64,000 nt of DNA from Hysterangium stoloniferum (Eukaryota > Basidiomycota > Agaricomycetes > Hysterangiales > Hysterangiaceae). The stretch is taken from contig WHVD01000068.1 in NCBI GenBank assembly GCA_015178975.1, forward strand, positions 248,001 to 312,000, read 5' to 3'. The position numbers were made by a program, and so were the translations under genes. The notes beneath the pieces were generated by a model that saw nothing but the letters and a program-made list of their open reading frames with translations, made no database searches and had not been told where the DNA came from. Within the stretch, counting starts at the first letter, position 1. Each line of letters starts with the position of its first letter. Positions 27,749 through 61,804 of this stretch are shown here, piece after piece.

Positions 27749-27859
27749 TGTTGAATAAACAAATACATCGTAAGCCCCATAAATTAGTTAATTAGTTATT
27801 TTTTAGAAGAAATTCCCAAAAAATGCATAGCCGATTGCGAAGAACCATTTAATAAGGCG

Positions 27860-28480
27860 ACTCGTAAGGGAATTGGGATGCAATGGGAATTTGAGGCAAA
27901 ATTGGAGAATTCGTAATTTTTTGGTTTTGTTGAATTTTTGTTGAATTTTGCTAATTTGTTTTTTCCAGTTGCACCATGTGTTTTAACACAAATTTCATGT
28001 GCAAGAAAACTAATGTGTCGTCAAATTGCGATTGGTGCAATCGATTGCATCAGGCTTGTTACTGGACCGTAAATAGGCCAGTCAGAAAACCATGTTGAAA
28101 CCGAAAAAAGAGTCGAAAGGTGATTGAAGAATCAGAAAATGAAAGCGAAGGTGGTAGTCCCAGGATTCACAAACTTGGCCAAAGGAAGAATGTCAAATTT
28201 TTCTAGATGGTCGAGAAGGTCAGAAAATTAGTTGGATAATCACTTGGAGAAAGAAATAAAATCGATTGGTGAAAGAATGTCGAAATTAGAGGAAACTATG
28301 GAAAATTTGATCAGTGACGTCAAAGCATTCAGAAAGGATTTTTCGGTTTTGTCAAAGAAATTGGTTGAAAGTGGCGATTTTAGTGAGGAGACTGACATTA
28401 GCATTAATAGTGGAAGATTTAGGGGGGCATGGTTTGATAAAATGGTGGAACTGAGAGAGGAAGGAATTGAGGATTTGTAG
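27860..28480 (+). pseudogene. Accessory Zn2Cys6-like ORF of Gypsy B1 (decayed)
   Basis: On the strand opposite gag-pol, after a likely acceptor (TTTTTTCCAG), bases 27,970-28,059 encode CTMCFNTNFMC, KKTNVSSN and CDWCNRLHQAC, that is CX2CX6CX8CX2CX6C. A probable upstream exon ends at LENS before GTAATT (about 27,921). Downstream comes an acidic/basic segment with in-frame stops, then an 82-codon coiled coil at 28,232-28,480 (IKSIGERMSKLEETMENLI, then DVKAFRKDF). The N-terminal coiled-coil exon of the intact E3 gene is missing, because the element is truncated. Zinc binding is inferred from spacing alone. Confidence 0.6.
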
Positions 28481-40200: not shown

Positions 40201-41103
40201 AGAATGTCTTCTGATTGACTATATTGATATTCAGATTAATAGTCTCAGATTTTGATTCTTCAAAGATTTTCTCAGATATAGATGAATGACTTGCCAAGGT
40301 CAAATCATGCTTCTCTTCCAATAACATTTTGATTGTCAGTTGAATCAGATTTGGATTTGTTGAAGGTGTCGAAGTAGGTTCGAACAATATACATATGGCC
40401 AGATCACCAGTCAATCGCAGGATTGTATTGCTTCAACCAGTTGAGTCCTAATACCACTTGACAAGATGAGTTGAGATTGGTTAAAAAGAATTGTAATTCT
40501 TGAGTTTTGCCTGGATGGAAAGTAAACTTGTAATGTAGTCATATACGTAATTTGTCCTGATGTTGGAACTGATCTGTTGATTAATTTCAATGATAACAAA
40601 TTTTTCAATTGGTCAAAAGGTAGTTATTTTGTCGTGCAAATGTTTTGTCCATACAAATGTGACTAGATCCTGAATCAATTAATGCTTTTATTTTTGGAAT
40701 TTTCTTCGATTTAAGTTTGATAATTAAAGAATCAGAAATTGTTACTGCTTGTAATATTACATAGGAATCTTTTTCAGCGTGATTGAGTTTTCTTCGATAC
40801 TCTTCACATGCCTGAAGAGTATCTCTTTCAATCTTCCAATTTAACATTCAATGTTTGATTCGACTGATTGGATTGAGCTGTCAAATCTTGGACTTCAACG
40901 ATTCATCCTTTTGCAATTTGACAAGTTTTTCTTTTTGGGCAATCTCTTGCTGAATGGCCTTTTTCTCCACATAATATACATACATAATCCTTCTTTACAT
41001 CTTCTGTCTCGTTCAGCAGGAAGTAATCATCCATCAGGTCCTAAAGTTGTTGAAGATGGTTTCACTTGAGTCAAAGGCCTAAATGTTCTTGAAGTGGAAG
41101 TTG
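37276..41103 (-). pseudogene. Gypsy B2: truncated, CpG-depleted gag-pol copy
   Basis: Homologous to B1 from RNase H (37,276, matching about 30,675) through RT (about 39,230-39,960) and protease (DSGSSH at 40,605-40,847) to the Gag zinc knuckle and just beyond (41,103, matching about 33,025). It is cut at both ends with no LTRs. Compared with B1, many CG dinucleotides are now TG or CA (for example TTTCGAG becomes TTTTGAG). A 1,439-bp solo LTR is nested in the RNase H part. Many stops; non-functional. Confidence 0.85.
37640..39078 (+). repeat. 1,439-bp solo LTR, TSD GTTTA
   Basis: Begins TGTGAGGTATC and ends GAATACATTACA, with exact GTTTA duplications at 37,635-37,639 and 39,079-39,083. The empty site is seen in B1. 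A plus-sense TATA region (AAAATGTATATAAGGAG) is near 38,380. It shares its end (ATACATTACA), TATA phrase and GTCAC/GTGAC-rich block with the longer solo LTR at 53,651-55,629, so both belong to one family of very long LTRs. Confidence 0.9.
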
Positions 41104-42733
41104 TCCTTCTTGTGACTGTCCCTTTCCATTGGCTTGTTTCAGCCAGAATCTGATGATGGATCCCCCTGGCTGATGCTTATATCTGATCCTTGACCCGCAT
41201 TAGCCATAGCATCATCAGCCCCACACCCACTACCTGTACCAGCAAACATGACCTCTGGCGAGTGTGAACTTGTTAAGTTTGATATATTCAACATCGAGGG
41301 ACTCCCTGGCAGATTGGGTTGCAAGTGCAGACATCCTGGCTTTGGGCTTGAAGTGGCCACAAATAACAACACTTTCTGAACCTGATTCTGTGTTGTTGCC
41401 CTCATAAGCGATGATAGAACAGCCCACACATCTTGTATCTGAAACTGACTCAGATCAATAGCAAACAGCACCTGGGACTCCAGTCTCCACTCCGACCCTG
41501 ATTTACCTCCATGTCCACCCACATCCACCTCCATATGCATGACACCACCACCACCACCACTGTCATCTTCACTCTCAGTGCCACTCCCACTCCCACTCAT
41601 AAGCTGTTACTCCACCACATCCACACTCGAATCAGGGCCAATCTCAAATGACATCTCTGCATCATGCCAATGCGTGCAGCCATCAATGGCACTTGCACAC
41701 CCACCCGACAGACATCCAACAGGCGCAGCCATGTCACACACCCAGCTAGCATGTGAGGAAGGTGATGGATGTGCAGGTGAGCCTGTGGGGTGTTGGCTGT
41801 GCTGTATGAGCATGGCAGTTCCGGGGCTTGCAGGGGTGCAAGAGGGTGCAGAGGGAGGTGTCGGCCTGCAGAGGGCCTCAAAGGTCAGAGGTGCTGTGTG
41901 CTGTGAACAGAGGGCCGACATGGCTATCTGAGAGGACTGTAATTGTGGCTATAGTATGGAAGGTTTTGTTTGGGACATGCACTCTGACTGAAATATGAAG
42001 GAGGGTGGGTGTGACAACACGAACCCATCCCCCACTCCCTTTGAATTGGACACGGCTGACTTCAACACCATCGCAGCATACTATTTGGCATTGGAGGCAT
42101 CACATGCATTGCTCCTGATGTCGATGGTATGGTGGCTCCATCATCCATCATAACCCCCTGATCAACCTTGTCCCTCTCTCAACTTGCCTCCTCCTCCATG
42201 CTGGGTATACAGTGATTGGGATGACTGCAAATCAAGCCACACATGTGGCATCATTGAGTCTACTAGCACAGTGCACCATAGCATTACCAATACACAATCT
42301 ACAGGTGACATGTAAGGCACTAATTAATTTGAATCAGAAGTTAGAAAGCATAATTACTTTACTTACTTTTAACAGATTGAATGACATCCACTGCCACTGA
42401 CTGTCTTCAATCTCTTCAGCCTCATCAATAATGGTGGCTATCCACTGTGGAATTGGGTAGGTGAGACTGTTAAATACAAACAAAATACTATAACTTACAA
42501 ACATCATTAGAGAAATTGAACAGAGCTGTTAGCTGTGCCAGTGTCATAGAGATGTGAGGTCATGATATCATTTGTCAGACATGAATATCTTCTATTCAGT
42601 GATGCACTTTTGCAACCAATGAGATACAGTTATGGAAAGCAGTGCCCAAACTCGGTGTGGTATAGATAATGGGTTGATGCGATGAAAATGCAAGGTGAGT
42701 GTGACAGATCAGTCACACTGCTTTGAGCGAATT
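41104..42733. other. Unassigned DNA with possible minus-strand exons
   Basis: A 153-codon minus ORF (41,139-41,600) is Ser/Gly-rich and of low complexity, and overlapping frames at 41,597-41,931 look like chance ORFs. A better candidate is a minus-strand exon at about 42,365-42,462 (YPIPQWIATIIDEAEEIED, then QWQWMSFNLLK), bounded by an AACAG acceptor and a GTAAGTAAAG donor, with possible exons on either side. No family was recognised; it may be a broken host gene or transposase. Confidence 0.35.
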
Positions 42734-44223: not shown

Positions 44224-44767
44224 TGTTAAGTGCCGTGTCAGAAACTTATTCTGGAACTATCGGAAAGTCACTGAGTAGTCAGGAACTATCAGATAGGGTC
44301 AGGACGTTGGCCTCAGCTTATGTGCTGTGCCTCTACACAAACGCTCAAAGTCCTTAATTTCAGAGGTGAGACTTACGATGGAAGATACGGATATTCAGAG
44401 TTCCAAAGAGTTCCGAATATTGAGCGTACAGAAAGACAGAAGAAGGAATAAGAAACTAAGTCAATATCAGATCTAAGGTAAAGTACAAATTCACGGAAAC
44501 TAATATAAGTCTTCTCGTTATTGTACCACAAACTGAGACCATAATAAGACAGAAAAGGAAGTATTCTTAAAATGGGAATACAATAAGACATATCGGAGAG
44601 ACAATATTCTGAAACGGGAATATAATAGACAAACGAGTGAATACTTGTCAATGGACAAATTGCCAAATGTGGAACAAGGGAAGAATGTGGAAGATACAGT
44701 AACTATTATGTTCCCTAGTCAGAGATTGGAAGTCGGATATTGAAACATCTGGGAACAGCTTGTAACA
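44224..44767 (-). repeat. 3' LTR of E2
   Basis: 544 bp. It contains the stem-loop at 44,309-44,331. It pairs with 50,892-51,434 with about 8% difference by hand count. Confidence 0.92.
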
Positions 44768-44895
44768 GTACCCCCCTGTTAGGCCGAAGTCCCATAGAGG
44801 TGATTAGGTACTGAGTGATTGAAGCGATGGCTGATTATTATGTGTTGTGAAATTTACGCAATTATGGAGGTGAGAGTTTCGGCTGTTGTTCTGAG

Positions 44896-44903
44896 TATAA
44901 AAA
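44896..44903 (+). promoter_or_regulatory. TATA box of the E2 accessory ORF
   Basis: TATAAAAA lies 56 bp upstream of the first ATG (44,952) of the opposite-strand ORF. The intact E3 gene has TATATAAAAA 60 bp upstream of its ATG, so the arrangement is conserved between two diverged elements. Confidence 0.5.
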
Positions 44904-44951
44904 CCTCCAAATATTTGAATTAATGTTTTTGTTTCTTTATCTACAACGTGC

Positions 44952-46086
44952 ATGTTGATTCGTCAGCCATTGTTTATCAGTACCCTGGAAGATTCAGATG
45001 CCGAAATTTCCATTCGTCAAAAAAATGTCAAAGGTTGCAGAACTTCAACAAAAATGGCAGAGGATGGAGGAGATGAGGCAGTGACAAGAGGAGGAGGAAA
45101 AGGTTTTGATGCGGGAGTTGAAAGAGGTGGAAGAGGTGGAAAAATGGGAGTTGGAGTGAGGAAGGCGGAAAAGGAAGTGTGGTTACAGAAAACAGCGGAG
45201 GTTCAGAAAAAGAAGGAAGAGACAGAAAGATTACAGTGAGAGTCAGAGGTGGTGGAAAAACGTAAAGAGATAAGGGAAGGAAAGGTGAGTTTGATCCATA
45301 AATTTCCGTGGTTCCAACTGTTAACTATTGGGTACAGCGAAAAGCTGTGGAGGTGGAGGTAGAGGGAGAAGCTGGGCCTTCGAGTCCTAAAGTAAGTGTG
45401 ACTGCAAAAGGTCGGTAATTGAATAAACTTCCGAAACAGAAGCAAAAAGTCAAAGCTCCAGAACGGATGGAAGTCGTCCACAACACTCCATGTTATTGAT
45501 GTTCCATACAGAGTATGACATGTTGGAAACAGAAGGTATCATGGGGTGGAACCTGTTATCCCTGTGTGGTTCTCAAACTTCCATGCACTCTCACCTCAAA
45601 AGGGTTCCAAAAGGTGAGAAGGCTCAGAAAACTAATGACACAGAAAATTCAGGAGTGGCCAAAGCTGTGGAAACTGAGGTACTGAACATGGATAGAATGT
45701 GCATCGAGCTCCTCAAGGACACCATCAACACGTTGGTCTTTATTGGGAGGGAAGTCATGAAAATGCGGGATACACTGGATCGCCATAATGATATCCAGGA
45801 AAAGGGTTTCCATTCATTGATCTGGAATTTCCGGAGGTGAAATGGATTTCTGGAGAAGGTAATGGTTAGCATCAGTGTTATCGCAGTTTCTGAGAGGTTT
45901 TCCAATAAGGCATGGGAGCAGCCTAATGATCCGTTGGTGGAATGTGTTGAGAAAAGGTGGGAATCAGGAAAGGGGCCGGAAAGTGAGGATGAAGAGGTAC
46001 AGGATATGGTGGAAGGTGTGGAGATTGCAGATGATACGGGAGTAGAATTGGAAGGAGGATTTGGGGTGTCAGAAACATTAAAATAG
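44952..46086 (+). pseudogene. Accessory Zn2Cys6-like ORF of E2 (frameshifted)
   Basis: Charged coiled-coil segments lie near 45,025-45,240, for example VAELQQKWQRMEEMRQ and EEEEKVLMRELKEVEEVEKW, interrupted by stops. At 45,491-45,586 one frame reads CY-stop-C, SIQSMT, C, ten residues, CYPC, VVLKLP, C: CX2CX6CX10CX2CX6C with a TGA at 45,497-45,499. After a frameshift comes LLKDTINTLVFIGREVMKMR and DTLDRHNDIQEK, then a Glu-rich tail to 46,086. The layout matches E3: coiled coil, Cys cluster, coiled coil. Non-functional here. Confidence 0.6.
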
Positions 46087-46177
46087 TTGCAATAATATTT
46101 TTTTTGACTTGCATGATTTTGAAGAATGAGTGTGATATCGGAAGTATCGGAAGCTGAACAGAAAGAAAACGGAAGGG

Positions 46178-49100
46178 TCAGAGTGATGATAAAGGTCCAG
46201 GTTTACTCAGATAAGCTGTGTGGAAGTCAGTGACAATTTCCATAGCGTGTCCAAGTTCTGTGGCCAATATCCATGAAGTTTCCTTGTCAGTACCTTCATA
46301 ACCTGCCCATTTGACTAAATAGAGCAATTTACAAGTACATTGGCGATTGTTGATTTTAGAATCCAAAAATTTGGAAACTTCAAATTTGGGTTCTCCGTCA
46401 ATGATGACCAGAGGGGGCGGAGGTTGAATACATTCCGGGATTTTGTTAGGAACACAGGGTTCTAACATGGAAGCATGGAAAATGGGGTGAACTGCTCACA
46501 TACTGTCGGGAAGTCGGAGAGTCCATGAAAGTGAACTGGCTTGTGCTATAATTTCAAAAGGGCCTAAGAATTTCTCAGTGAGTTTTTTAGAAGGTCGGGT
46601 AGTACGGAAAAATTGAGCTTTTACAAAAACCTGATCACCAATTTTAAAATTAGGAGGTGGGATCCTGTTTTTGTCCACGGAACATTGGTAATATTCCTAT
46701 GTGGGAGAAATAGCTTTCTGAAGTTCTTGATGTAATTTGTCGAGGTTGGTAATAAATTCTTGAGCACGAACAGAAGCCAAATCATGTTTGGAATGTACTG
46801 TGAGATTCGGATTATAGCCTTTGTTGGTGAAAAAAGGAGAGATGCCAGTAGTAGCATTTGGAGAGTTATTGTAGGTGAATTCTGCAATCGGAAGAAGGGA
46901 TTTCCAGTTGTCCTGTTGATAATTGCAATAAATGTGGAGATATTGTTCCAATGTTTGATTAACGTGTTCCGTTTGTCCATCACCCTCTGGGTGATATCCC
47001 GAGGTGAAGTGTAGTTTCATGTTGAGGGCTTTTCTGAGGGCCTGGAAGAAATGGGAGATGAACTTGGAGCCTCAATCGGAAGTTACATGAGATGGAACTC
47101 CATGTTTGGAAAATATGTGAATAATGAAAAGTTCCGCTAATTGTAAGGATGTGATTGTATCATGGGTGGGTATGAAAATGCCTTGTTTCGAGAATCGATC
47201 CACAACAACTAGAATAGATGTAAAGCCTTCAGAAGTCGGAAGTTGTTCAATAAAATCCATGGAAATTGAGTTCCAGGGTTTTTCCAGTATCGGAAGTTGT
47301 TTGAGAAGGCTGTATGGCTTATGCCTCTGGGTCTTAGAGTGTAAGCAGGTGGTGCATGACTTACAGAACTGGGTTATGAAATCTCGGAGGTTGGGCCAAG
47401 TATATTTTCTTCAGATTAGACCAAAAGAGTATTGTTAATGCCATAATGTCTGGAGATTGGATGATTGTGTTTGTACTGAAGTACGTGGAGTTGGAGATTA
47501 TTGGAATCTGGAACATAGATGCATCCATCAAGACAGATAAAACCTTGAGAGTCTTGTGACCATCGGGGTTGGTTGGGATTATTGGGAACTTCTAGGTGTG
47601 GCTTGAGGGCTGGGTCGGAAGTGAGTGCAGAAAGGATATCTTGATGTAATTGCTCAATGTCCATAATCATAACACTACACATAATTGGATAGTAGAGGGA
47701 AGTTGCTCCAATAGATGCGGAAAGTTGTTGCATTGTAAAAACTGGTTTCAAGTTATGTGGATTAACAACGGCATAGTTACTTTCCCCCTCTTTAGGATAG
47801 ACATCCCAACGTCAAGTCATGGCATCTGGTTTTCCACCAAGATGTCTGGGTTGGAAATGGATAATCATGTTGAAAGCAGAAAGAAATTCAGACCAGCGGG
47901 CTTGCTGGTAGATTAAAAGTTTAGTGGTAGAAAAATATTCGAGAATTTTGTGATCGGTAACAACATCAATGGGAGTTGCGGAACCTTTGAGATAATGATG
48001 CCAATGTTTGAAAGCCTCAAAAATCGCCAAAACCCATGGTTGAGTTTTATGGGTAAGATGAGTAAGTGGTATTGTAATATCCGAGTAGTTCCAAATAAAA
48101 CGATGGTAAAAGTTGGTGAAACCCAAAAATGACTGAATGGCCTTGACTTTCCGTGGTTCGGGCCAATCACAGACAACTTGAACCTTGGTTTCATCCATAT
48201 GGAGACCCTCAGGTCTGGTAATGAAACCTAAGTATTCAATAGAATCCATGTCAAAGTAACATGTTTTACCATTGTCGAAAAGACCATTTTTACGGAGTCT
48301 TCGGAAGACTTCATGGACCTGTTCATCGTGAAGTGCGGGATCCTCGGAAAATACCAAAATGTCATCCAAATAGACTATAACACATACGTCAAGCATGTCA
48401 GAAAATATATTGTTAACAAAATGTAGAAAAGTGGAAGGGGCGTTGGTAAGGCTGAACGGCATAACCAACCATTCAAAGGATCCATAGCAAGTCTGAAAAG
48501 CAGTTTTCCATTCATCACCCTCAGCAATTGAAACCAAATGATAAGCATGTTTGAGGTCTATTTTGGTATAAATTCGAGCTTCCCGTGGGGTGTCGAGTAA
48601 ATCAGTAACAGGTGGAAGTGGATACTTATCTTTCTGTGTGATGGAATTTAATCCTCTGAAATCAGCAGAGTCAAAGGGAGCCATCCTTCTTTCTGATGAA
48701 AAGGACGGGTGCTCCATAGGGAGACTTTGAGGGATGGATAAAACCTATCGACAGATGTTCATCCAGGAACTCCCGAATAGATGAAAGTTCTGATTGGGAT
48801 AATGGGTAAATAGGTCCTAACAGAGGGTTTGAACCAGGCTCAATATCGATTTTTAAGTTGTAGGGCCTATATGGTGCAAGCCTGTCAGCTTTTTGCTTAC
48901 TGAAAATGTCTGTGAAATCATGGTATTTTTCAGGAACTCCTTCCAGATTGGCTTTTAGCTCAGATAATTCTGGAGTCGCAAAACATCCAGATGCTTCATT
49001 AACTTTTAAGCTGATTGAAAAGCACTGCAAACCATCCAGTTTACTCACCCTAACAAATGCCGAAGCATTAATGAGAGAGATTTTTGGAGGCATGGAGGTT

Positions 49101-49636
49101 TTGGTAGAAGCTGGAGTCATTGATGCCAAAAAGGCGTTGGCCGGAAAAGACATTACAGGAGGAACTGAAGTGTCGGGAATTCGGAAATTAATACTGCCCA
49201 ATACCCAGTCAATCAACGGATTATATCAGGTGAGCCAGTTGTATCCAAGAACTACTGAACAGCTAGAGTCCAACTGTGTTACAAAAAAGGTAACCATCTG
49301 GGATGTTCCACAAGGGAACCGGATAGACATGTCGCAGGCTTGGGTAATTGCCGTATTGCTAGTGCCGTCAAACAAGCACAAGGAAATTGTGGGAACAGAA
49401 TGGAGTTTCAGATTATGTTTTGTGGCAAAGGTGGTATCTACAAAACAGTGTGTGGAGCCAGAATCTATCAGAGCTCGGAACACTAAATTTCCAAGAAGGT
49501 CAGAGACGAGTTTTACAAATAATGAATCAGGGTTAGAGAGAGCGGACGCATTGAGACGGATAACTTCAGAAACACGGAGAGAGTCAACACAACCCTCTGT
49601 CCATGCTGATTCCAGAGGGTTGCTTACTCTTTTTTT
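46178..49636 (-). pseudogene. E2 pol, degenerate
   Basis: Protease at 49,226-49,560 (ALIDSGSTHCFVD, DSSCSVVLGYNWLT). The linker and RT start are at 48,671-49,216. RT lies at 47,812-48,717 (DFRGLNSITQKDKYPLPPV, YTKIDLKHAYHLV, VIVYLDDILVFSED). The RNase H N-terminal half is deleted: THKTQPWVLAIFEAFKHW joins positions about 85 residues apart in E3. Integrase pieces are at 47,072-47,260 and 46,697-47,020 (GDGQTEHVNQTLEQYL), and the chromodomain at 46,178-46,468 (LLYLVKWAGYEGTDKETSW). At 49,630-49,636 an A7 run (minus) puts gag and pol in one frame. Confidence 0.88.
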
Positions 49637-50846
49637 GAACTCCGTGGCAGGTTTTTCCTTAGACGTTGTAGTCATGGTGGAAGTTGCCATGTGGGCCTTG
49701 GAAGAGTTAGATTTAACAGTACAGTCAGAAACCTTGTGTCTGCCTTTCCCACAGAAAAGGCAGAGGTCATTGTCCATACATCGTTGTTTCTCCTTCAGGG
49801 GGGGTGAGTTTACCGTCAGTACCCAACAAATGGGAAATGTCGGGTTTGTCGGAAGTTGACTGTTTATTCTTATTGGATTTCTTGTCTTTCTTCTGGTCAG
49901 AGTTTGATTTCCCAGTATTAGTGCCAGAGTTGCCAGTGTTATTGCCTGAGTTGTTGCTGGAAGACTTGCTAGTTGATGCCTTGTTATTCTGAGAATGTTC
50001 TGTCGGGTTCTCTTGAGAGACCTCGGCTTTTCACTTCCAATAATGGGCATCGGATGTCTGAGCTTTAATCCACATAAGTTGGAGAGTTTTTGGCTTCCCA
50101 TCTTTGCAGATTTCGTCTTTAAGGCATGACAGAAGTCCCATATAGAAATGGTGCCTGAGGGTGGAATCGTCCCATCCACATTGTGTGGTGAGGGTATTGA
50201 ACTTGACAAGGTAATTGGAAACTTGTTGATTGTCCTTCATCTTAAGTGTCATTAATTCATTTTCTGCTTCGCCAGATTGATCGTATGGTCCGAAATTAGT
50301 TTCCAGTTTTTCCACAAATGCATCCCAGTTGTCGAGCCTTATGGGTGTCTTGTCGGATATTCCAGATAGTCTGGGTTCAAACCAATCCTGAGCAGTATCC
50401 TTGAGATAAGAGAGCGTAAAATTAACTTTTTGACTGTCAGATTTAAATGCAGCAGGTCGATCACGGAAACTGAAATGGCATTGGAGAAGGAAATTCTTCA
50501 ATTTTTTCAGATCCTTGCCAGTAAATGGTTCAGGTTCTTTGACTCCGGTGCAGGATGATTATTTACTATCCTCAGTGGATTTCAAATAGTCAGTGAATTT
50601 CACAATGGAGTTGATAAACAACATTTCAGTCGGTTCATCGGAAGATTTCTTTTTCGATGATTCTGGCTGATCTTCTGCTTCATTGTTGGAAGTGTGGGCA
50701 ATATTGGGATCCTTCGTTACCTCGGTAACTTCCTCAGTAACTTCTTCAACTGAAGCTGATGTTGTCGGCTGAATTGGGGTTTCAGGTTGGGTTGTATAAA
50801 GTTGCAATGGGATTGAAGTTGGGATGGTCCTTCGGCAGCTTTGCAT
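49637..50846 (-). pseudogene. E2 gag, degenerate
   Basis: N-terminal part at 50,559-50,846 (Glu-rich), capsid-like core at 50,031-50,501 (FSFRDRPAAFKSDSQKVNF, LENWDAF-like NWDAFVEKLETNFGPYDQSG), and zinc knuckle near 49,760 (CLFCGKGRHKVSDC, CX2CX4HX4C). A stop at 50,031 and a break near 50,540 separate the parts. Long plus-strand ORFs over this region (48,906-49,859) are antisense shadows. Confidence 0.85.
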
Positions 50847-50891
50847 TTGGGACCCATGATGAGCGAGTTGCAGAGTTGAGATCTGATATAC

Positions 50892-51434
50892 TGTTAAGTG
50901 CCATGTTGGAAACTTATTCCGGAACTATCAGAAAGTCACCAGGTAGTCAGGAACTATTGGATAGGGTCAGGACATTGCTTCAGCTTATGTGCTGCGCCTC
51001 TACGCAAACGCTCAAAGTCCTTAATTTCAGAGGTGAGACTTACAATGGAAGATACAGATATTCAGAGTTCCTAAGAGTTCCAAATATCAAGCGTACAGAA
51101 AGACGGAAGAAGGAATAAGAAACTAAGTCGATATCAGATCTAAGGTAAATTACAAATTCGCAGAAACTAATATAAGTCTTCTCATTATTGTACTACAAAC
51201 TGAGACCATAATAAGACAGAAAAGGAAGTATTCTTAAAATGGGAATAAAATAAGACATATCAGAGAGACAATATTCCAAAACAGGAATATAATAGACAAA
51301 CGAGTGAATACTTGTCAACGGACAAATTGCCAAATGTGGAACAAGGGAAGAATGCAGAAGATATAGTAACTATGATGTTCCATAGTTGGAGATTGGAAGT
51401 CAGATATTGAAACATCTGGGAATGGGTTGTAACA
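50892..51434 (-). repeat. 5' LTR of E2
   Basis: 543 bp, stem-loop at about 50,977-50,998. The bases just inside (minus GTATATCAGATC) contain no TGG-type primer-binding site. Confidence 0.92.
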
Positions 51435-51439
51435 GTCCT

Positions 51440-51725: not shown

Positions 51726-52536
51726 TGTTAGGATACACACACAGGGCGGGTCTCGTGAGAAACCCGCGGGATATCCGGTAGGACTTGGCTTCAGCTTATA
51801 GGCTGCGCCCTCGCTAGATCGTGTTGTCCAATTTCGAACAGGCGGACGGGAATCCCGGGGAGTCCGGGCGGGGTTCGTAAGTCGTAGGTCGTAGGTCGTG
51901 AGGTCGTGGGTCGTGAGTCGAGATAGTCAGGAGAGGTAGATACGCCGGAGCCCGTGGGCTCCGACTAGTGCGAGCGGTGTGATTTAGAGTAGGGAAAATA
52001 TATAGATTAAAGGGGGGAATAAACTACTAATTTTCTGACTGGATTGTATGTACAACATCTGCCAGTTTAAATAGACCATGGAGTGAATGAACATACTAAT
52101 CCGGTAATAATGAAAACGAAACTAACAAAACATAAACGGGAAATGTAAACACCAAATTTGGTGTTAGGAACGGGACGGAACGGAGCGGAGTCCGAATCGT
52201 GACAAAGCATAACCCATAACGGGAAACGGAGCGGGAGTGGAGTCCTAATCGTGACAGGTCGTTTGACTAAAACGGGAACGGGGCTCGAATAGAGCGGTGA
52301 CGGGATTCTGAGCAGGGTCCGGTGACTGATGCGTGGGACGAAGACGGACATAGACAGAGACGGAGTCCGGGGGAGGTCCGGTTACTGATATGTGTCGTAC
52401 TGAGGTCGAACGTAACGAGTCTTGACGTAACGGAGTCCGGGCGGGAAATCCTATAAACAGACGATTGGTGCTTGTAGCGCGTGGGGGCGTACGGGTTAGT
52501 GCCCGGAGTCCGGCGGGATTTGTCCGGGTCGTAACA
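51726..52536 (-). repeat. 3' LTR of E3
   Basis: 811 bp. Contains the stem-loop at 51,787-51,809 (GGCTTCAGC, TTATAG, GCTGCGCC), a GTCGTAGG/GTCGTGAG microsatellite near 51,880-51,920, and a minus-sense TATTTAAAC box near 52,070. All differences from the 5' LTR fall to the right of about 52,190. Confidence 0.93.
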
Positions 52537-52554
52537 GTATCCTCCCTTTATGCC
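52537..52554 (-). promoter_or_regulatory. Polypurine tract of E3
   Basis: Minus strand AAAGGGAGGATAC abuts the 3' LTR start (TGTTACGACC), the usual place for plus-strand DNA priming. The adjoining GCCGAAGTCCC phrase is shared with E2. Confidence 0.75.
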
Positions 52555-52686
52555 GAAGTCCCAAAGAGGCTCTAGACCTAGATAAGGTTCTTGTCGGCTA
52601 CGCGCATGTGTCAAAAGTCATGTCGGTTACACGTATGTGTCAAAGAGTCATGTGATCTGGAAGGTAAGGTTCAAACGCGACGAGCC

Positions 52687-52696
52687 TATATAAAAA
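52687..52696 (+). promoter_or_regulatory. TATA box of the E3 accessory gene
   Basis: TATATAAAAA lies 60 bp upstream of the ATG at 52,747, on the strand opposite gag-pol. This implies transcription independent of the LTR promoter. Confidence 0.55.
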
Positions 52697-52746
52697 TTTG
52701 AAAAAATAGAAATTTCTTCTTCTTCATTACCCCCATCATCGTCACC

Positions 52747-55700
52747 ATGGGACCAAAACCGACACCACGCAAGCCAATGCCGACAGCAGGGCCCTCCACG
52801 GGCACTCCGTATCGGGCACCATGGAGTGCGGCCCAATTGTTGGCGCGGCGAGAAGAGCAGCGCCAACTGCGTGAAGCAGCAGAGAGAGAGGCAAGGGAGG
52901 CCGAGGAGGCCCTGGACAAAGAGTATCGGGAAGCATTGGCCGCGGAGGAAGAGGCCGCGAAGGAGAGGGAACGTGAGGCGGAGGAGGCTGCGCGAGTGGC
53001 CGCGGAGAACGCCCGGGTGGCTGCAGAGAAGGCCCGGGTGGCCGCGGAGAGGGCCGCCGTTGTTGCGGGAAAGGTAAGTCCCAATGCTCAACTTGTCGAA
53101 CTTTTCACTGACTGGTGATTTTCAGCGCAAAGCGACAGAGGTGGAGTCGGAGTCCGAGGGGGAGCCGGAGAGCCCCCAAAAGGTAAGTCTCATGTCCGTG
53201 GGATAACCGATAAAACTGATCATATCAACAGAGGGCAAGGAAGGCGGCACCAGTCCGACTGCCGACGCGGAACGAGCCGCGGTGCTCCGGTTGTAGTGAC
53301 CGGAACACGGAGTGTAACAGGAAGTCCGGCCGGGGGCCGGGCTGCTATCAATGCGCGCACCTCAAGGCGAGGTGTTCGCTTGTACATGAGCAAGCCGCGG
53401 GGTCCGGGGCACGGGACATTAGCGGGACGGATGGGTTTACCGGGTTGGACGAGGTCCTCGGGCGGATCGCTGAGGGCATCGAGGCCCAAAACGTGTTGCT
53501 CCAGAAGAGCAACAAAGTCCAAATGAAGGTGGCGAAGGAGCTGTCCGGACTCCGCGGGGAGTTTTGGAAGTTCCTGGCAGAGTATGGCGGCTATGTGTAT
53601 GAGGAGCCGCAGATCGGAAGTTCCGAGGATGCCGGGTCGGATGAGGAAGGTGTTATGTATTTATAGGTTTTTTCCGATTTTTAACCAATCTCCCCCTAAC
53701 AAATTGTGAAAACGAAGTTTAAATGTACTTATATTGCGACGACAAAATTGTACAATATTTTCTTAATTTATCTTGAATTTTTACAATTTATTTTGTATTT
53801 TTATCTGATAAATTGAGCAAGATATTGAATTTCTAACGTTTATTCTTTTTTGATTAATATGTCGGGGACTCGGCGCTTAGTCACAACGCGCGAGGTTATA
53901 ATCATGTGACATTCACATGACATTTCAAACTCCGAGGCCGACAAAACGCGATGTGAAATAATCGCGCATAAACAAGACAATATATATATTTTTTTTATAT
54001 TATTATAATAAAATATTATATTTATAACTAACTAAAAATAAATATAATAAATATATAATAATATAAAACCGGCCACTGTGATTATTACACGGTGCGCGGG
54101 AAAATCGTCACAACGAGTGACAACCGTCACAACAGGTGACAGTTGTCACAAGGGCGCGCGACGGTCACAGAGGCGCGCGACTGTCACAAAGGCGCGCGAC
54201 TGTCACAAAGGCGCGCGACTGTCACAAAGGCGCGCGACTGTCACAAAGGCACGCGACGGTCACACAGGCGCGCGACGGTCACAACGCGTGACAGTCACAA
54301 GACGCGAAGGATATCATACGCGCGCACAGGCGCGAGAGCATTATGTCAGCATATATGCTACTACAGCAAAAACCGGAAATGTCTGGAACATTCCAGTGAC
54401 TGCCAAAGGAATAGTAGTTAATAGGTACTAATAATAGATAGAATATTGTAGAATATTCTGTAAGTTTCCAGAATGTTCTATTATGCCAAGAATATTCTAT
54501 AGTGTCTTAGAAAGTAGTTAGAACCTCCCACAATGCTCTAGAAAATTCTAGAAAATTCTAAATGACATCATTCCTTCCAGAATGACATCATTCAATCTTC
54601 TAGAATCTTCTATATGTCTCAGAATAAAATGTATATAAGGAGCTCAGCTCCAGCCCCAAAATAATAATCAATTTTATCAACCCATTTATCAACACATCAG
54701 TGTGTCACTGCAGCTAGCAGTTTATTGCCACCTCTTAGTTGAGCGTCTGGCACCTAGGATTCCCTGTCACCTCTTGTTGAGTAATTTGACAGTAATTCTA
54801 CCAATCAGGATTCCCTGCCACCTCTTGTTGAGTAATTTGGCATTAATCCTTTGTACTACAGTCACCTCTTGTTGAGTAATTTGACTGCTTGTTACATATT
54901 TGTTATTTGTAGTTTAAGACTTCAGTCACCTCTTGTTGAGTAATTTGACTGATTATTACATTGCAAATAATCTTTGTTACATTTCTTGTTATTTGTAGTT
55001 TAAGACTTCAGTCACCTCTTGTTGAGTAATTTGACTGATTATTACATTACAAATAATCCCTGTTCCCTTGCTCATTTATTGTGAATCAGTAAAGCATATT
55101 CACAAAACATCTTAAAGTGTTTGAGCATAAATCAATACTGAGAATATCCTTGCAAGATCCTAAAACTACATTAAGATCCTGATAAGTTAATATCACAGTA
55201 GACCCTGTAGGTTAGTGTAAATAAAGCATATATTAGCCAAATAGTGTTTTATTCTATATCTAATCTTTTGACCTGTTTATAAATATTTTTACTGTTTGAC
55301 AAATAGTATAAAATATATATAAACTAGCTAGCATTGAAGTTAAATCTAGCTTCGGAATCAGTAAATTGTTATTCTTATTTTAGTAGTTGTTATCACAGAA
55401 AAAGAACAAGCTTGCACAAGCAGCTCTCAAAACCTTCTTTGCGAAGTAGGGTGCATATATTCAAGTAAACTCTTGACTTCAGGGGTTCTAAGTCTATTTA
55501 GGCTGCCACTGATTAATATCAAATACTTAAATTATTTTACCTTGCAGTGAATTGAGTATTTGCACATTTTGATAGAGCATTGGACTCCTTTTTCGGAAAA
55601 TAATATTAAAATAAGCCTAATACATTACAGAAGGGGTTGCCGCGGAGATCGCGGAGCTTCCTGGGGAAATGGCTGAGGCGGGAAAACAGGAGGCGGGAAA

Positions 55701-55758
55701 ACAGGAGGCGGGAAAACAGGAGGCGGGGAAAAAAGACAGTCCCATAAATGTAGACTGA
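52747..55758 (+). CDS. Opposite-strand accessory Zn2Cys6-like protein of Gypsy E3
   Basis: Exons 52,747-53,073, 53,126-53,182 and 53,232 onward; introns of 52 and 49 bp, GTAAGT donors and CAG acceptors, all phase 0. Start context CACCATGG. Exon 1 (109 codons) is a Pro-rich start then a Glu/Ala/Arg coiled coil (ARREEQRQLREAAEREAREA). Exon 2 is acidic (VESESEGEPESPQK). Exon 3 has CSGCSDRNTEC, nine residues, CYQCAHLKARC at 53,283-53,375, that is CX2CX6CX9CX2CX6C, the fungal Zn(II)2Cys6 spacing, then a second coiled coil (IAEGIEAQNVLLQKSNKVQM). A solo LTR (53,651-55,629) splits exon 3; beyond it the frame continues (VAAEIAELPGEMAEAGKQE, then EAGKQ repeats) to TGA at 55,756. Ancestral length about 308 residues. 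DNA binding is inferred; role in the element unknown. Confidence 0.75.
53651..55629 (+). repeat. 1,979-bp solo LTR nested in the accessory gene, TSD GAAGG
   Basis: Begins TGTTATGTATT and ends CTAATACATTACA, with exact GAAGG duplications at 53,646-53,650 and 55,630-55,634. It has a plus-sense TATA phrase (AAAATGTATATAAGGAG) near 54,628. Internal repeats are a 19-bp GGCGCGCGACTGTCACAAA array near 54,152-54,285, and TCACCTCTTGTTGAGTAATT copies between about 54,768 and 55,035. It adds a stop five codons after the junction in the accessory gene. Confidence 0.92.
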
Positions 55759-55964
55759 AAGTAATATAGAATAAAAAACAATTTGAACATAATAAAAGTA
55801 AAGTATGAAAAACATAAGAATAAAAGTCAAAGTCAAAGTCCATGGGAATTCCACTTAAAGACTTGAAAAAGACGTGTCAGAACCTGTAAAAGCAAAGAGA
55901 GACATAGGGCGACAGGGAATAGTGAAAATGAGTCCAAACGTAACACGGGGTCCGCGGAGTGCGG

Positions 55965-58900
55965 TCAGAGAGACGATAATGGTCCAGGTTTGAGCGGGTA
56001 AGCTGTATGAAAGTCAGTAACGATTTCCGTGGCATTACCGAGTTCCGTGGCCAAAATCCATGAAGTCTCTTCATCGGTGCCCTCGTAACCCGCCCACTTG
56101 ACCAAGTAAAGCAGTTTACAAGTGCGTCGACGCTTGTCAATTTTTGAATCTAAAATCTGCGCGATTTCAAACTCGGGTTCTCCGTCAATGACGACAGGAG
56201 GAGGCGGAGATTGCACGCGATCCGGGATAGTGTTAGCAGTACAAGGTTCTAACATAGAAACATGAAATACCGGGTGTACCGTGTGCATGCTATCCGGAAG
56301 CCGTAGAGTCCAAGAAACTGAACCTACTTGTGCGATAATTTCAAACGGACCTAAATATTTTTCAGCAAGCTTCTTTGATGGACGGGTAGTCCGGAAGAAT
56401 TGAGCTTTGACATAAACGCGGTCGCCAATCTTGAAGTTGGGTGGCGGGATCCGGTGTTTGTCCGCTGAATGTTGATATTGCTCTTGGGCGGACTTTATTG
56501 CAGTCCGGAGTTCCTCGTGGAGCTCGTGGAGGTCCGTGGTGAACTCTTGAGCGCGAGCAGAGGCGAGATTTCGTTCTGGATGTACTGTAATATTTGGATT
56601 ATATCCTTTATTTGCAAAGAACGGGGAAACACCAGTAGTGGCCGAAGGTGCATTGTTGTAAGCGAACTCTGCAAGTGGTAACAAGGATTTCCAATTGTCC
56701 TGTTGATAATTGCAATATACGCGGAGGTATTGTTCCAATGTCTGGTTGACGCGTTCGGTTTGTCCGTCGCCTTCCGGGTGATGTCCGGACGTGAAATGTA
56801 AGGTCATGTCCAAGGATTTTCCAAGGGATCTAAAGAAGTGAGACACGAACTCTGATCCTCTATCGGAAGTCACGTGGGACGGAACTCCGTGCTTGGAAAA
56901 TACGTGGATAATGAAAAGTTCCGCTAGCTGCACGGACGTAATTGTATCATATGTAGGGATGAATATACCTTGTTTTGAGAATCTGTCAACAACGACTAGA
57001 ATGGCGGAAAAGCCTTCGGAGTCCGGTAGGTGTTCAATGAAATCCATAGAGATAGAATTCCACGGGTGATCCGGTACCGGGAGTTGTTTCAAAAGGCCGT
57101 ATGGCTTGTGTCGCTGAGATTTCGAGCGGGGACAAGTAGTGCAAGATTTACAATAGTGCTTAACGAATCCACGGAGTCCGGGCTAAGTATATTCTCTTCT
57201 TATTAATGATAGAGTTTTGTTGTACCCGAAATGTCCTGCGAGTGGATGATCGTGTTTGTATTGAAGGATCCTGAGGCGGAGGCCATCGGAATCCGGTACA
57301 TAGATCCTATCGTCAAGTCTAATGAAACCATGCTGATCAAGAGACCACCGAGGTTGATCGGGGTCCACGGGATTATCTAGATGAGCTTTAGTAATTGGGT
57401 CTAGGGGAATTGCCGATAGAATATCTTGATGTAACTTCTCGATATCCATAATGATAATTCCACGGACAATGGGATTGATGAGGAAAGTTGCATGGACCGA
57501 TGCGGTAAGTTGTTGATTTGTGAAAATAGGTTTCAGGTTGTGCGGATTTACCATGGCATAGTCGTTGCTCCCCTCTTTAGGGTAGACGTCCCATCGTCTA
57601 GTTAAAGCGTCGGGTTTGCCGCCGAGGCGGCCGGGTCGGAAACGGATAATCATGTTGAAAGCAGATAGATATTCAGACCAGCGGGCCTGCCGGCGGGTCA
57701 AAAGTTTTGTGGTAGAAAAGTATTCCAGGTTTTTGTGATCTGTTACAACGTCAATAGGAGCTCCTGAACCTTCCAAGTAGTGTCGCCACGCTTTGAAAGC
57801 TGAAAAAATTGCCAGAAGTTCTTTATCATGAACGTCGTAGTTGAGCTCTGCTCCGGTAAAAGTCCGGGACAGAAAAGCCACAGGGTGGACTTCTCCGTCG
57901 GAGTCCTGGATAGACAGAATGGCTCCAAGTGCATAATCCGAGGCGTCCGTTTCAACAATGAGCGGGAAGTCCGGTTTCCAATGCGATAGAATAGGAGCTG
58001 TAGAAAAAGAATTTTTTAAAAGATTGAAAGCTTTTTGACACTTATCGTTGAAATTCCACGGAGTACCCTTACGCATAAGACGGGTAAGGGGTACCGTGAT
58101 GTCGGAATATCCACGGATAAAACGTCGGTAAAAATTGGCAAAGCTGAGGAAGGATTGTATATCTTTAACTTTTCGGGGTTCGGGCCAATCTTTGATGACT
58201 TGCACTTTAGTTTCGTCCATGCGGAGTCCGTCGGGTCCCATCATGAAACCTAGGTATTCCACGGAGTCCGTGTCAAAAGTACATTTTTTACCATTTGCGA
58301 ATAAACCATGTTTTCGAAGTCTCCGGAGAACTTCGCGGACTTGTTTGTCGTGTTCCGCGGGATTCTCGGAGTAGATAAGAATGTCGTCCAAGTAAACAAT
58401 GACACATACATCGAGCATGTCAGAGAAAATGTCGTTGATAAAACGCTGAAAAACAGAAGGAGCATTGGTGAGACCAAAAGGGATCACCAACCACTCAAAG
58501 GCCCCATAACGGGTTCTAAAAGTGGTTTTCCATTCGTCGCCCGCGGCAATCCGGACCAAATGATAGGCATGTTTAAGATCAATTTTGGTGTAAATCCGGG
58601 CATTCCGCGGAGCATCGAGCAGATCAGGTATAAGTGGGAGTGGATATTTATCCTTCTTGGTGACAGCATTGAGTCCTCTAAAATCAACACATAGTCGAAG
58701 GGATCCATCCTTTTTTCTGACAAACAGAACAGGTGCTCCAAAAGGAGATTTTGAGGGTCGAATAAAACCTATGGACAAGTGTTCATCCAGGAAATCGCGG
58801 ATTGCGGAGAGTTCCGTGGACGAGAGCGGGTAAATATGTCCTAGGGGTGGCTGGGCGCCATCTTCAAGATCGATTTTTAAGTCGTATTCTCTGTGAGGCG

Positions 58901-59701
58901 GAAGCCGGTCAGCTTTTCGCTTGCTAAAAACATCCGTGAAGTCATGATATTTCTCCGGGACGCCTTCTAGGTCAGCGGCTTGCTCAGATTCAGATACCGG
59001 GGTTGAAAAATGTCCAGTTGCTTCATCAATTTTTAAGTTGATAGTGAACGCCTGGGACCCATCCATTTTTGAAGCCCTAATAAAAGCTGCAGCATTAATC
59101 AGAGAAATGGACGGAGGTGCCGTGGGTTCTGGGGAAGCTGTAGGTGCCGTAGGGATCACAGGAGTCCTCGAGACTGCAGGTGCCGGGAAGGCCATGGGTG
59201 CCGTGGAGGCCGAGACAGGCGCAGTTTCCTCGGCTGCCACGGGGGTCCGGAAAGTTATACTGTTAGCTATCCAGTCAATCAACGGATTGTAGCGGGTAAG
59301 CCAGTTATGTCCTAGAACCACCGAGCAACTTGAGTCTAACTGGGTCACATAGAAAGTGACCAATTGAGGTGTTCCACACGGGAACGTGATGGATAAATCA
59401 CAAGCTTGGGTAACAACCGAATTACTTGTGCCATCAAAGAGGCGGAGACCGACGGGATTTATCGAATAGGTTGACAAAGAATTTTTTTGCGTGAATTTTG
59501 TATCTAAAAAACAATGAGTCGAGCCAGAATCTATGAGAGCTGAAAAAACGAATTTCGGGATCATATTAGACATAAGTTTAACGAAAAATGAATCAGAATG
59601 TGAGAGAGCGGATGCGTTGAGGCGAGTGAACTCTTGAATGCGTGGAGAGGCAACGCAACCCCCAACCCGCGCGGAGTCCGCGGGGTTGCTTACTCTTTTT
59701 T
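55965..59701 (-). CDS. E3 Pol polyprotein (one in-frame TAG)
   Basis: Enters by a -1 shift at the A6 run (59,701-59,696), then is open. Protease near 59,540 (ALIDSGSTHCFLD). RT contains DGSLRLCVDFRGLN, YTKIDLKHAYHLVRI and VIVYLDDILIYSE with the catalytic YLDD. RNase H contains VETDASDYALGAIL and HDKELLAIFSAFKAWRHYL. The integrase zinc region has HPLAGHFGYNKTL and, past the stop, CKSCTTC. The catalytic core has SMDFIEHLP, TSDRGSEF and GDGQTERVNQTLEQYL (D,D,E), and the C-terminal chromodomain has LLYLVKWAGYEGTDEETSW. The TAG at 57,185-57,183 replaces a codon that by position was probably Trp; the next ORF (57,092-55,965) is in the same frame. It copies RNA to DNA and integrates it; chromodomains target heterochromatin in known chromoviruses. 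Confidence 0.93.
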
Positions 59702-60961
59702 CGAGTCGGAAGCCGGTTTGTCCTTCGACGGGGTATCCGTGGAGGCCTTGGCTGTTCGTCCCTTAGAAGAGTTTGCTTTTGCCAGCGGACATTCCGGGAC
59801 TCGATGACCGGGTTTCCCGCACAGTAGACAGAGGTTGTTGTCCATACGACGTTGTCTTTCCTGTGGGGTCAATTTGCCATCGGGTCCGAGTTTGCCTGAG
59901 AGATCGGGTTTTCCGGCTTGCTTGCCGGACTGTTGACTTTTGTTGTCCTTGTTGTCCTTGTTGTTGTTGTTGTTTGAAGACTTTTTATCGTTCTTCTTGT
60001 CGGATTGCGTGGAGTTGCCGGTAGATGAATTATTGGTATTGTTTTTATTGTCCTTGGACTTGTTTACTTTGTCCGCGGACGTCTCGCGGGCAACTTCCGC
60101 GCGACGTTCCCAATAACGTGCGTCCGCGTTTTGAGCCTTAAGGCGCATACAGGACAGGGTTTTTGGCTTGCCATCTTCTCCTTTTGAGACTTCGTCTTTA
60201 AGGTGGGACGGCAGACCGGCGTAGAATTGGTGGCAGAGAGCGGAATCGCCCCACTGACAACGAGCTGCAAGATTATTGAAATGGACGATATAGTCCGTGA
60301 TGCACTGCGTGTCCTTCATGCGAAGATTTGTGAGACTGTTTTCGGCTTCTCCTGTCGGGTCATACGGGCCAAAGTTGGTTTCAAGCTCCTCGACAAAAGC
60401 ATCCCAATTTTCAAGCCAGAGCGGCTCTTCCTCGGAAATCCCGCTAAAAGCCGGTTCGAACCATTTCAACGCGGATCCCGACAAGTACGAAAGTGCGTAG
60501 TTGACTTTTCGGGAGTCCGTGGAGAATGCAGCGGCACGATCACGGAAATTGAAGCGACATTGCATGAGGAAAGTGGAAGGTTTGTTTGGGTTGGAACCCG
60601 TGAAGGGTTCCGGAGCATTGACTTTTGACCGTGGAGGTTCTTGTTCCTTTTTCTTTCGTTCTTCAAGCAGGTGCGTCATAAATTTATCTATAGTTCCTGC
60701 TAAAACCTCAGAAGTAGGATCCTCTACGTGCGGTCGTTGACTAGGCGGAGGATTTTCGACACCTTTTCCTTTGTCGGGTGCCACGGAATTGTCCTCGTGC
60801 TCGGATTCGTCCTGGTTTTCCGGGACTTCTTCGATACGGGTTTCTTCCATGGGTTCCGGTTGGTCCAAGGATGTCTGGCTGGTATACAGAGATAACGGGG
60901 AATGAAGAGTTGACGGTCCAGGTAATGATGCCTGAGCACGTGTATTTCTTTTTGGTGGCAT
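59690..60961 (-). CDS. E3 Gag
   Basis: 423 codons, open. N-terminal Pro/Glu-rich part (MPPKRNTRAQ), capsid-like Retrotrans_gag core (FLMQCRFNFRDRAAAFSTDS, LENWDAFVEELETNFGPYDP, HQFYAGLPSHLKDEV), a Lys/Asn/Ser-rich linker (DKKNDKKSSNNNNNKDNKD) and a CCHC zinc knuckle near residue 390 (CLLCGKPGHRVPEC). Gag assembles the particle and packages RNA. It ends SKKE-stop at 59,690, and the AAAAAA just before the stop overlaps the pol frame. The ATG lies 36 bp inside the 5' LTR. Confidence 0.93.
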   Translation of the reverse strand: MPPKRNTRAQASLPGPSTLHSPLSLYTSQTSLDQPEPMEETRIEEVPENQDESEHEDNSVAPDKGKGVENPPPSQRPHVEDPTSEVLAGTIDKFMTHLLEERKKKEQEPPRSKVNAPEPFTGSNPNKPSTFLMQCRFNFRDRAAAFSTDSRKVNYALSYLSGSALKWFEPAFSGISEEEPLWLENWDAFVEELETNFGPYDPTGEAENSLTNLRMKDTQCITDYIVHFNNLAARCQWGDSALCHQFYAGLPSHLKDEVSKGEDGKPKTLSCMRLKAQNADARYWERRAEVARETSADKVNKSKDNKNNTNNSSTGNSTQSDKKNDKKSSNNNNNKDNKDNKSQQSGKQAGKPDLSGKLGPDGKLTPQERQRRMDNNLCLLCGKPGHRVPECPLAKANSSKGRTAKASTDTPSKDKPASDSKKE

Positions 60962-60996
60962 AATGAAACAATCTGCGAGTATCAGTCAGAAAATAC

Positions 60997-61804
60997 TGTT
61001 AGGATACACACACAGGGCGGGTCTCGTGAGAAACCCGCGGGATATCCGGTAGGACTTGGCTTCAGCTTATAGGCTGCGCCCTCGCTAGATCGTGTTGTCC
61101 AATTTCGAACAGGCGGACGGGAATCCCGGGGAGTCCGGGCGGGGTTCGTAAGTCGTAGGTCGTAGGTCGTGAGGTCGTGGGTCGTGAGTCGAGATAGTCA
61201 GGAGAGGTAGATACGCCGGAGCCCGTGGGCTCCGACTAGTGCGAGCGGTGTGATTTAGAGTAGGGAAAATATATAGATTAAAGGGGGGAATAAACTACTA
61301 ATTTTCTGACTGGATTGTATGTACAACATCTGCCAGTTTAAATAGACCATGGAGTGAATGAACATACTAATCCGGTAATAATGAAAACGAAACTAACAAA
61401 ACATAAACGGGAAATGTAAACACCAAATTTGGTGTTAGGAACGGGACGGAACGGAGCGGAGTCCGAATCGTGACAAAGCATAACCCATAATGGGAAACGG
61501 AGCGGGAGCGGAGTCCTAATCGTGACAGGTCATTTGACTAAAACGGGAACGGGGTTCGAATAGAGCGGTGACGGGATTCTGAGCGGGGTCCGGTGACTGA
61601 TGCGTGGGATGAAGACGGACATAGACAGAGACGGAGTCCGGGGGAGGTCCGGTTACTGATATGTGTCGTACTGAGGTCGAACATAACGAGTCTTGACGTA
61701 ACGGAGTCCGGGCGGGAAATCCTATAAACAGACGATTGCTTGTAGCGCGTGGGGGTGTACGGGTTAGTGCCCGGAGTCCGGCGGGATTTGTCCGGGTCGT
61801 AACA
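60997..61804 (-). repeat. 5' LTR of E3
   Basis: 808 bp, stem-loop at 61,058-61,080. The first about 460 bp (plus coordinates) are identical to the 3' LTR. Immediately inside is minus GTATTTTCTGACTG, with no TGG-type primer-binding site. Confidence 0.93.

Follow-up and report, generated by a model that had tools for sequence, protein, structure and literature searches.

A spliced antisense gene with a Zn2Cys6-like six-cysteine cluster in three retroelement families of Hysterangium stoloniferum

Three families of retroelements, E3, E2 and B1, are represented in a stretch of 64,000 nucleotides from the fungus Hysterangium stoloniferum (contig WHVD01000068.1, positions 248,001 to 312,000; hereafter the window, with position 1 at its first letter). 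Each family carries a three-exon accessory gene on the strand opposite to gag-pol, in the interval that separates the chromodomain end of pol from the 3' long terminal repeat (LTR). The gene encodes six cysteines laid out as in fungal Zn2Cys6 domains, is repeated in the genome and is under purifying selection. The presence in three families of a spliced antisense gene with such a cluster suggests that these elements make a regulator of their own. The reading that we favour, with a probability of about one half, is that of a retroelement-encoded, probably dimeric, Zn2Cys6-like regulator that would bind the DNA of its own element and either set its transcription or prevent its silencing. An antisense gene that occurs at hundreds of candidate places at least in a single fungal genome, that is spliced and selected in three families, and whose layout suggests the principal DNA-binding fold used by fungal regulators makes testable the old question of whether retrotransposons encode transcription factors for themselves.

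The E3 element of the window and its antisense gene comprise the following features:

51726..61804, minus strand: complete chromovirus element E3, LTR to LTR, gag-pol on the minus strand (ends and GTATG duplications located)
51726..52536, minus strand: 3' LTR (LTR comparison)
60997..61804, minus strand: 5' LTR (LTR comparison)
55965..60985, minus strand: gag, protease, reverse transcriptase, RNase H, integrase and chromodomain frames (Pfam)
52687..52696, plus strand: TATA-like box 5' of the antisense gene (box of this kind in 24 of the 26 distinct aligned E3 loci)
52747..53073, plus strand: antisense exon 1, a highly charged helical stretch (same length, 327 nt, in 16 of the 18 further open copies)
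53126..53182, plus strand: antisense exon 2, acidic then basic, 57 nt (length invariant in the 18 further open copies)
53232..53650, plus strand: antisense exon 3 up to the insertion, with a basic stretch, the six-cysteine cluster and a helix
53283..53375, plus strand: six-cysteine cluster, CX2CX6CX9CX2CX6C (six-frame pattern scan)
53651..55629, no strand assigned: later insertion in exon 3, solo-LTR-like, 1,979 bp (short inverted LTR-like ends and a 5-bp duplication)
55630..55758, plus strand: last part of exon 3, moved away by the insertion, including its original stop at 55756-55758 (other copies run directly into this tail)

The two LTRs of E3 are 98.65% identical over 815 aligned positions and the element is flanked by a GTATG duplication. 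Its pol encodes a chromodomain (PF00385, 30.0 bits for a cut-off of 25.1) together with rve, RVT_1 and SH3_Tf2-1 in Pfam, which identifies it as a chromovirus. The antisense gene is bounded by the chromodomain end on one side and the 3' LTR on the other, and both of its introns are GT-AG in the window copy. The exons, introns and pattern scan bear out the original prediction, made from the letters alone, of a three-exon gene antisense to gag-pol with this cysteine spacing. The span then proposed (52747..55758) ends at the right stop codon; most of 53651-55629 is an insertion and not part of the gene. This insertion is flanked by a GAAGG duplication (53646-53650 and 55630-55634) and, judged from its ends alone, is probably a solo LTR.

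The E2 and B1 copies of the window are as follows:

44224..51436, minus strand: E2 element with its two LTRs (at 44224-44769 and at 50892-51436, 91.8% identical)
44952..45284, plus strand: E2 antisense exon 1 (open relatives elsewhere in the genome)
45338..45391, plus strand: E2 antisense exon 2
45440..46086, plus strand: E2 antisense exon 3, broken in the window copy, end approximate
45491..45586, plus strand: E2 six-cysteine cluster, X10 loop, TGA inside the first CX2C (pattern scan)
27807..28480, plus strand: B1 antisense gene, of which exon 2 and exon 3 survive (broken, with approximate ends)
27970..28059, plus strand: B1 six-cysteine cluster, X8 loop (pattern scan)

The six-cysteine layouts claimed for E2 and B1 were thus found where they had been placed. 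Both window copies are broken (B1 has a TGA 3' of the cluster, and its exon 1 and 3' LTR are absent left of about 27800), and some of their relatives elsewhere in the genome have open frames. That the gene lies antisense, with the chromodomain on one side and the 3' LTR on the other, was observed in the window for E2 and B1 and in bulk for E3. The B1 frame scanned with Pfam gave SH3_Tf2-1, an rve match below cut-off and no Chromo match. As in E3, a TATA-like box precedes the E2 antisense gene. A stop-free frame of 331 codons (48864-49859, plus strand) also lies opposite E2 gag-pol, and a second B-type pol stretch at 39079-41105 is 86.8% identical to 31047-33029.

Pieces of the antisense proteins were matched against the whole genome of H. 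stoloniferum (Hysterangiales, Phallomycetidae; 111 Mb in 554 contigs). The gene is repeated in all three families, with at least 150 matches for E3 (best 150 of 1,118 candidates), at least 150 for E2 (best 150 of 840) and 124 for B1 (140 candidates scored). Loci were gathered around such matches (88 in total) and, once nine duplicates and one B1 locus without the pattern had been removed, 26 distinct ones remained for each family. Nineteen of the 26 E3 loci are open as a whole spliced three-exon frame, the window copy being counted up to its insertion; the seven others have no ATG (two), frameshifts (three) or stops (two). In the 18 other open copies, every exon has a length divisible by three (exon 3 measures either 498 or 510 nt), and the introns are 47-58 nt long and GT-AG in every copy; the splice sites are conserved across the aligned E3 copies. 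E2 has the same three-exon plan, with exons of about 340, 54 and about 640 nt against 327, 57 and about 500 nt in E3, and is open at 7 of 26 loci, the others being broken or unparsed by the script. Most open B1 copies have exons of 85, 106 and 535 nt, with splice sites picked for the fewest stops, and 8 of 26 loci have an open frame and an exon 3 of the full 535 nt.

The association with pol was counted in E3, for the best 150 of 3,133 chromodomain candidates. At least 113 of these have an oppositely oriented cluster no more than 4 kb away, at a distance of 660-800 bp in 112 cases and of 2,710 bp in the remaining one; the count is a lower bound, since scoring covered only the best 150 of the 1,118 candidates for the cluster. 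The proportion is 44 in the top 50 matches, and no cluster on the same strand was found within the 4-kb range among the best 150. For E3, which this count covers, the reading frame is therefore present in most related elements, as the original prediction implied. A search of 5.8 billion proteins, which needs exact shared words of five residues, returned only three relatives (P0001, P0002 and P0003), all labelled H. stoloniferum; one search scored only the 8,000 candidates richest in shared words, probably crowded by charged low-complexity words. Absence from other species is not implied, because an exact-word search was used and transposon genes are often omitted from annotations.

Selection on exon 3 was estimated by pairwise Nei-Gojobori ratios of non-synonymous to synonymous substitution rates (dN/dS). 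The medians are 0.163 for E3 (26 copies, 324 pairs), 0.259 for E2 (24 copies, 276 pairs) and 0.152 for B1 (17 copies, 136 pairs), at median dS of 0.42-0.52. Two E2 loci were dropped (L009 and L018) and two with late frameshifts were kept (L061 and L066), which raises the ratio; nine B1 copies were dropped for early stops. Exon 3 is thus under purifying selection in all three families, as had been argued from the window copies, and a degenerate passenger is rejected since the ratios are well below 1. The full conservation of the cysteines arises partly by construction, because copies were selected for the pattern and mostly also for the lack of a stop; unlike it, the low dN/dS at this dS is not a product of copy selection. 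Exon 3 of the window E3 gave 0.108 against locus L033 (nine-fold fewer pairs). In the open E3 copies, variable columns peak at the third codon position (18, 21 and 46 in exon 3) and, among copies of equal length, the ratio of non-synonymous to synonymous proportions of differences (pN/pS) is 0.25, 0.16 and 0.27 in exons 1, 2 and 3, respectively. Values of 0.35 and 0.32 for pol dN/dS are not relied on, given a possible frameshift in the alignment. Between the E3 element and L106/L033, antisense exon 3 has a dS of 0.43 and pol, whose alignment may contain a frameshift, one of 0.22; from these values, the antisense module could have been exchanged between lineages.

Two alternatives bear directly on these data. 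Antisense transcription itself, through double-stranded RNA or interference with gag-pol, might be what matters, the reading frame being incidental. Antisense RNA regulates other elements, according to the part of PMC7264820 available, and the TATA-like box recurs in nearly all distinct E3 loci (24 of 26), but the dN/dS of 0.15-0.26, the conserved splice sites and the in-frame exon lengths disfavour this explanation and make it extremely unlikely. The gene might also derive from a host Zn2Cys6-type gene captured in reverse orientation by a common ancestor, which would now regulate host genes or be a passenger under residual selection. This fungus does have 42 genuine Zn2Cys6 matches above the Pfam cut-off, and the three-exon structure resembles that of an ordinary fungal gene. 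Nevertheless, selection persists across families at dS 0.4-0.5, which is unexpected of a passenger, and no close host relative was identified among the 42 matches (15 read), so that a host capture of this kind appears very unlikely.

Zn2Cys6 domains follow the spacing rule CX2CX6CX5-14CX2CX6C. A six-frame scan of the window finds three instances of this pattern (27970-28059, 45491-45586 and 53283-53375), as against none in 60 order-3 Markov shuffles of the window, so that a chance pattern is rejected. E3, E2 and B1 all follow the rule (PF00172), the E2 window copy with a stop in its first CX2C. In the alignment of the three families (A2), the six cysteines and one lysine 3' of Cys3 are invariant near the cluster. 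For comparison with the host, 9 of 15 fetched H. stoloniferum Zn2Cys6 domains were used, six having been dropped for a partial pattern or a stop; the score of the E3 profile against them was reached by only 1 of 60 shuffles of the columns with the cysteines fixed. A profile search of PDB gave 22 weak matches; PPR1 ranked second (E 0.13), its alignment being in register, and LEU3 (E 1.6) and LAC9 (E 2.2) were also found, most other matches being helical proteins. From its layout, it is a fair inference that the protein would work like a Zn2Cys6 protein.

The likeness between the E3 and E2 clusters extends beyond the cysteines (reached by 0 of 60 Cys-fixed shuffles), and this comparison shows that the two are homologous by common descent. 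The B1 cluster cannot be tied to either by sequence, its likeness being reached by 10 of 60 shuffles against E3 and by 40 of 60 against E2. Convergence is therefore to be considered: E3 and E2 would share one gene, and B1 would have gained another cysteine-rich gene at the same place. The exon lengths of B1 (85/106/535 nt) are also far from those of the two others, and B1 lacks their charged N-terminal exon. However, the three families share position, strand and a three-exon plan in which exon 3 holds the cluster, and the six cysteines plus the invariant lysine are common to all of them; convergent layouts are thus somewhat unlikely.

The predicted structures place a confident helix 3' of the cluster, at about residues 71-119 of exon 3 in E3 and about 101-140 in B1, in AlphaFold models that are otherwise mostly of low confidence (mean predicted local distance difference test, pLDDT, 61.8 and 53.6). 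A home-made heptad score for this region was reached by 0 of 200 shuffles in B1, 22 of 200 in E3 and 28 of 200 in E2. Coiled coils had been claimed downstream of the cluster in all three families and upstream in E2 and E3. Downstream, the claim agrees with the modelled helix in E3 and B1, the heptad score being strong in B1 only; upstream, it is unconfirmed because the score of the highly charged stretches was reached by 140 of 200 shuffles in E3 and 128 of 200 in E2. In these two families a basic stretch precedes the cluster.

Gal4-type and other Zn2Cys6 proteins read CGG half-sites. The word CGGAGTCCG, a CGG-N3-CCG form, is present in 14 copies in the joined LTR, gene, pol and LTR of E3, almost always in one orientation, when 0.06 would be expected. 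E3 pol contains 12 CGG-N3-CCG, found in all three frames, where 500 synonymous-codon shuffles give 2.0 (maximum 7), and 15 CGG-N5-CCG, where they give 2.5 (maximum 8); in the LTR plus promoter, CGG-N3-CCG occurs 5 times versus 0.5. CpG spacing alone fails to explain this excess. Genome-wide, CGGAGTCCG is found 5,297 times versus 543 for its reversed control, a weak indication because repetition of the element would inflate the count of every word in it. CGG-N3-CCG is thus a candidate, unproven target of the E3 protein, and E3, with its repeated copies and over-represented candidate sites, would be a convenient test case.

Similar words were sought in the other families. The counts of hand-picked words of the E3 LTR region were reached by 0 of 400 shuffles. 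For E2, TCGGAA and GGAAGT were reached by 9 and 7 of 400 shuffles but ACGGAA by 184; for B1, GTCGAA was reached by 4 but TGTCGA by 86 of 400, and the B1 word in E2 by 14 of 400. An own motif spread over the element is thus clear in E3 and marginal in E2 and B1. The CpG observed/expected ratio is 0.50 in the E2 coding frames (46621-50236) and 1.11 in E3.

A number of results weigh against a regulator that reads DNA, some from the cluster and others from the sites. On E3 exon 3, Zn_clus (PF00172) scores 10.8 bits, below its cut-off of 21, and among 23 members scanned, 7 gave a match with E of 1 or less (best E 0.11) and none above the cut-off, so that membership of Zn_clus is not established. 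In Gal4-type proteins, the basic loop between Cys2 and Cys3 contacts CGG; here it reads SDRNTE in E3, SIRNMT in E2 and FNTNFV in B1, with at most one arginine. The scores of the E2 and B1 profiles against host Zn2Cys6 domains were reached by 16 and 19 of 60 Cys-fixed shuffles, and the cluster regions have a pLDDT below 60 in the E3 and B1 models, which have shallow alignments. As to the sites, two spacings are enriched, and one fixed dimer spacing would not predict the excess of CGG-N5-CCG. The sister element L106 keeps 9 of 12 CGG-N3-CCG versus 187 of 221 single CGG or CCG triplets of the window E3 pol, hence no excess, and L104 keeps 2 of 12 versus 91 of 221; methylation-driven decay is likely behind the loss of CG-containing words in L104 and E2. 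Over all 6-mers, the rank correlations between LTR and own pol are about zero (-0.004 in E3, 0.045 in E2 and 0.038 in B1), and the top 15 LTR words are enriched in the own pol for E3 only (0.89 versus -0.26 and -0.11), so that this unbiased test does not uphold the E2 and B1 motif analogues. Within 51726-61804, GGAGTCC is present 21 times in one orientation and GGACTCC once, in the antisense gene; this strand bias weighs against a palindromic protein site, because a palindrome is indifferent to the orientation of its centre. On the claimed Zn2Cys6 match or fold the results are divided: E3 beats 59 of 60 shuffles against host domains, whereas the Pfam score and the modelled cluster fall short.

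The same data bear on a zinc-stabilised accessory factor acting by contacts with proteins (gag, integrase or host chromatin), for instance in nuclear import or integration targeting, and reading no DNA sequence. The largely missing basic recognition loop, the limited similarity of E2 and B1 to the Zn2Cys6 domains of the host, the long helix, the charged stretches and the chromodomain that these elements also encode are consistent with such a factor. The resemblance of the E3 cluster to host domains beyond the cysteines and the excess of CGG-N3-CCG in E3 argue against it, and no contact partner is known; it is fairly unlikely.

For the favoured DNA-binding regulator, the following model can be drawn. 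The six cysteines would most likely hold two zinc ions, as in fungal Zn2Cys6 domains, and the long helix that follows would probably make dimers. In E3 and E2, the basic stretch before the cluster could carry the protein to the nucleus. The protein plan would then be that of a small DNA binder of the Gal4/PPR1 type with no recognised effector domain. Its most likely job would be to bind the LTR and internal CGG-type sites of its own element, and this binding would set the transcription of the element or keep it from silencing. A more specific and quite improbable version is a self-recognition system, in which the antisense protein of each family would bind a family-specific, CpG-bearing site and shield its own copies from methylation and silencing, cluster and site diverging together. 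The candidate sites would be CGG-N3-CCG, as CGGAGTCCG, in E3 and, more weakly, TCGGAA in E2 and GTCGAA in B1. By analogy, this would be a retroelement counterpart of VANC in which the element would have spread the site through its LTR and coding sequence; if it is true that site and cluster match, the retroelement system would be comparable to VANC.

We know of no characterised protein among those of the antisense accessory genes of plants and Botrytis. PPR1, LEU3 and LAC9 share with the retroelement protein the six-cysteine spacing and the helix after the cluster, and differ from it by their Pfam scores, by a basic loop that is reduced in the retroelement protein and by not being encoded by a retroelement. 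HBZ of human T-cell leukaemia virus (HTLV) is a basic leucine zipper (bZIP) protein. HBZ and APH-2 of HTLV, mentioned as antisense in the accessible text of PMC11963269, would likewise be antisense nuclear regulators encoded by a retroelement, but they have no six-cysteine cluster and no kinship is claimed.

A close description is that of the antisense gene brtn in the Boty-like elements of Botrytis cinerea, in the parts available of PMC4227169 and PMC8365987, which mention no cysteine cluster, intron or selection. Like the E3 gene, brtn is an additional antisense gene of a fungal Ty3/Gypsy element with a chromodomain (PMC4227169), but the host belongs to another phylum and the likeness is one of description, not of protein sequence. 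In plants, Retand elements have antisense open reading frames (ORFs) with a TRP28 domain, as far as the text of PMC11963269 at hand goes; they belong to a non-chromovirus lineage and have another domain. The word zinc is missing from the main text of that paper, and the spliced E3 protein, up to residue 268, contains neither TRP28 (PF04195) nor any other Pfam family at E up to 1. Antisense ORFs are also described in Grande (gene23), RIRE2 and PvRetro13, with no clear similarity to other proteins according to the available portion of PMC7264820, which reports nuclear localisation and an upstream promoter for gene23. VANC of VANDAL elements provides a model of a transposable element protein acting on the sequences of its own family (PMC5735166, accessible part); VANDALs are DNA transposons of Arabidopsis, so that the parallel is by analogy. 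No antisense Zn2Cys6-type gene was found in a retrotransposon in the literature searched, most subscription journals being outside its scope. Antisense accessory genes are therefore already known, and the Zn2Cys6-like cluster is a new kind of protein among them.

Elsewhere in the 64-kb window, Rfam gave no match and an annotated RNA feature is thus rejected. A tandem array with a period of 44 bp lies at 35097-35448.

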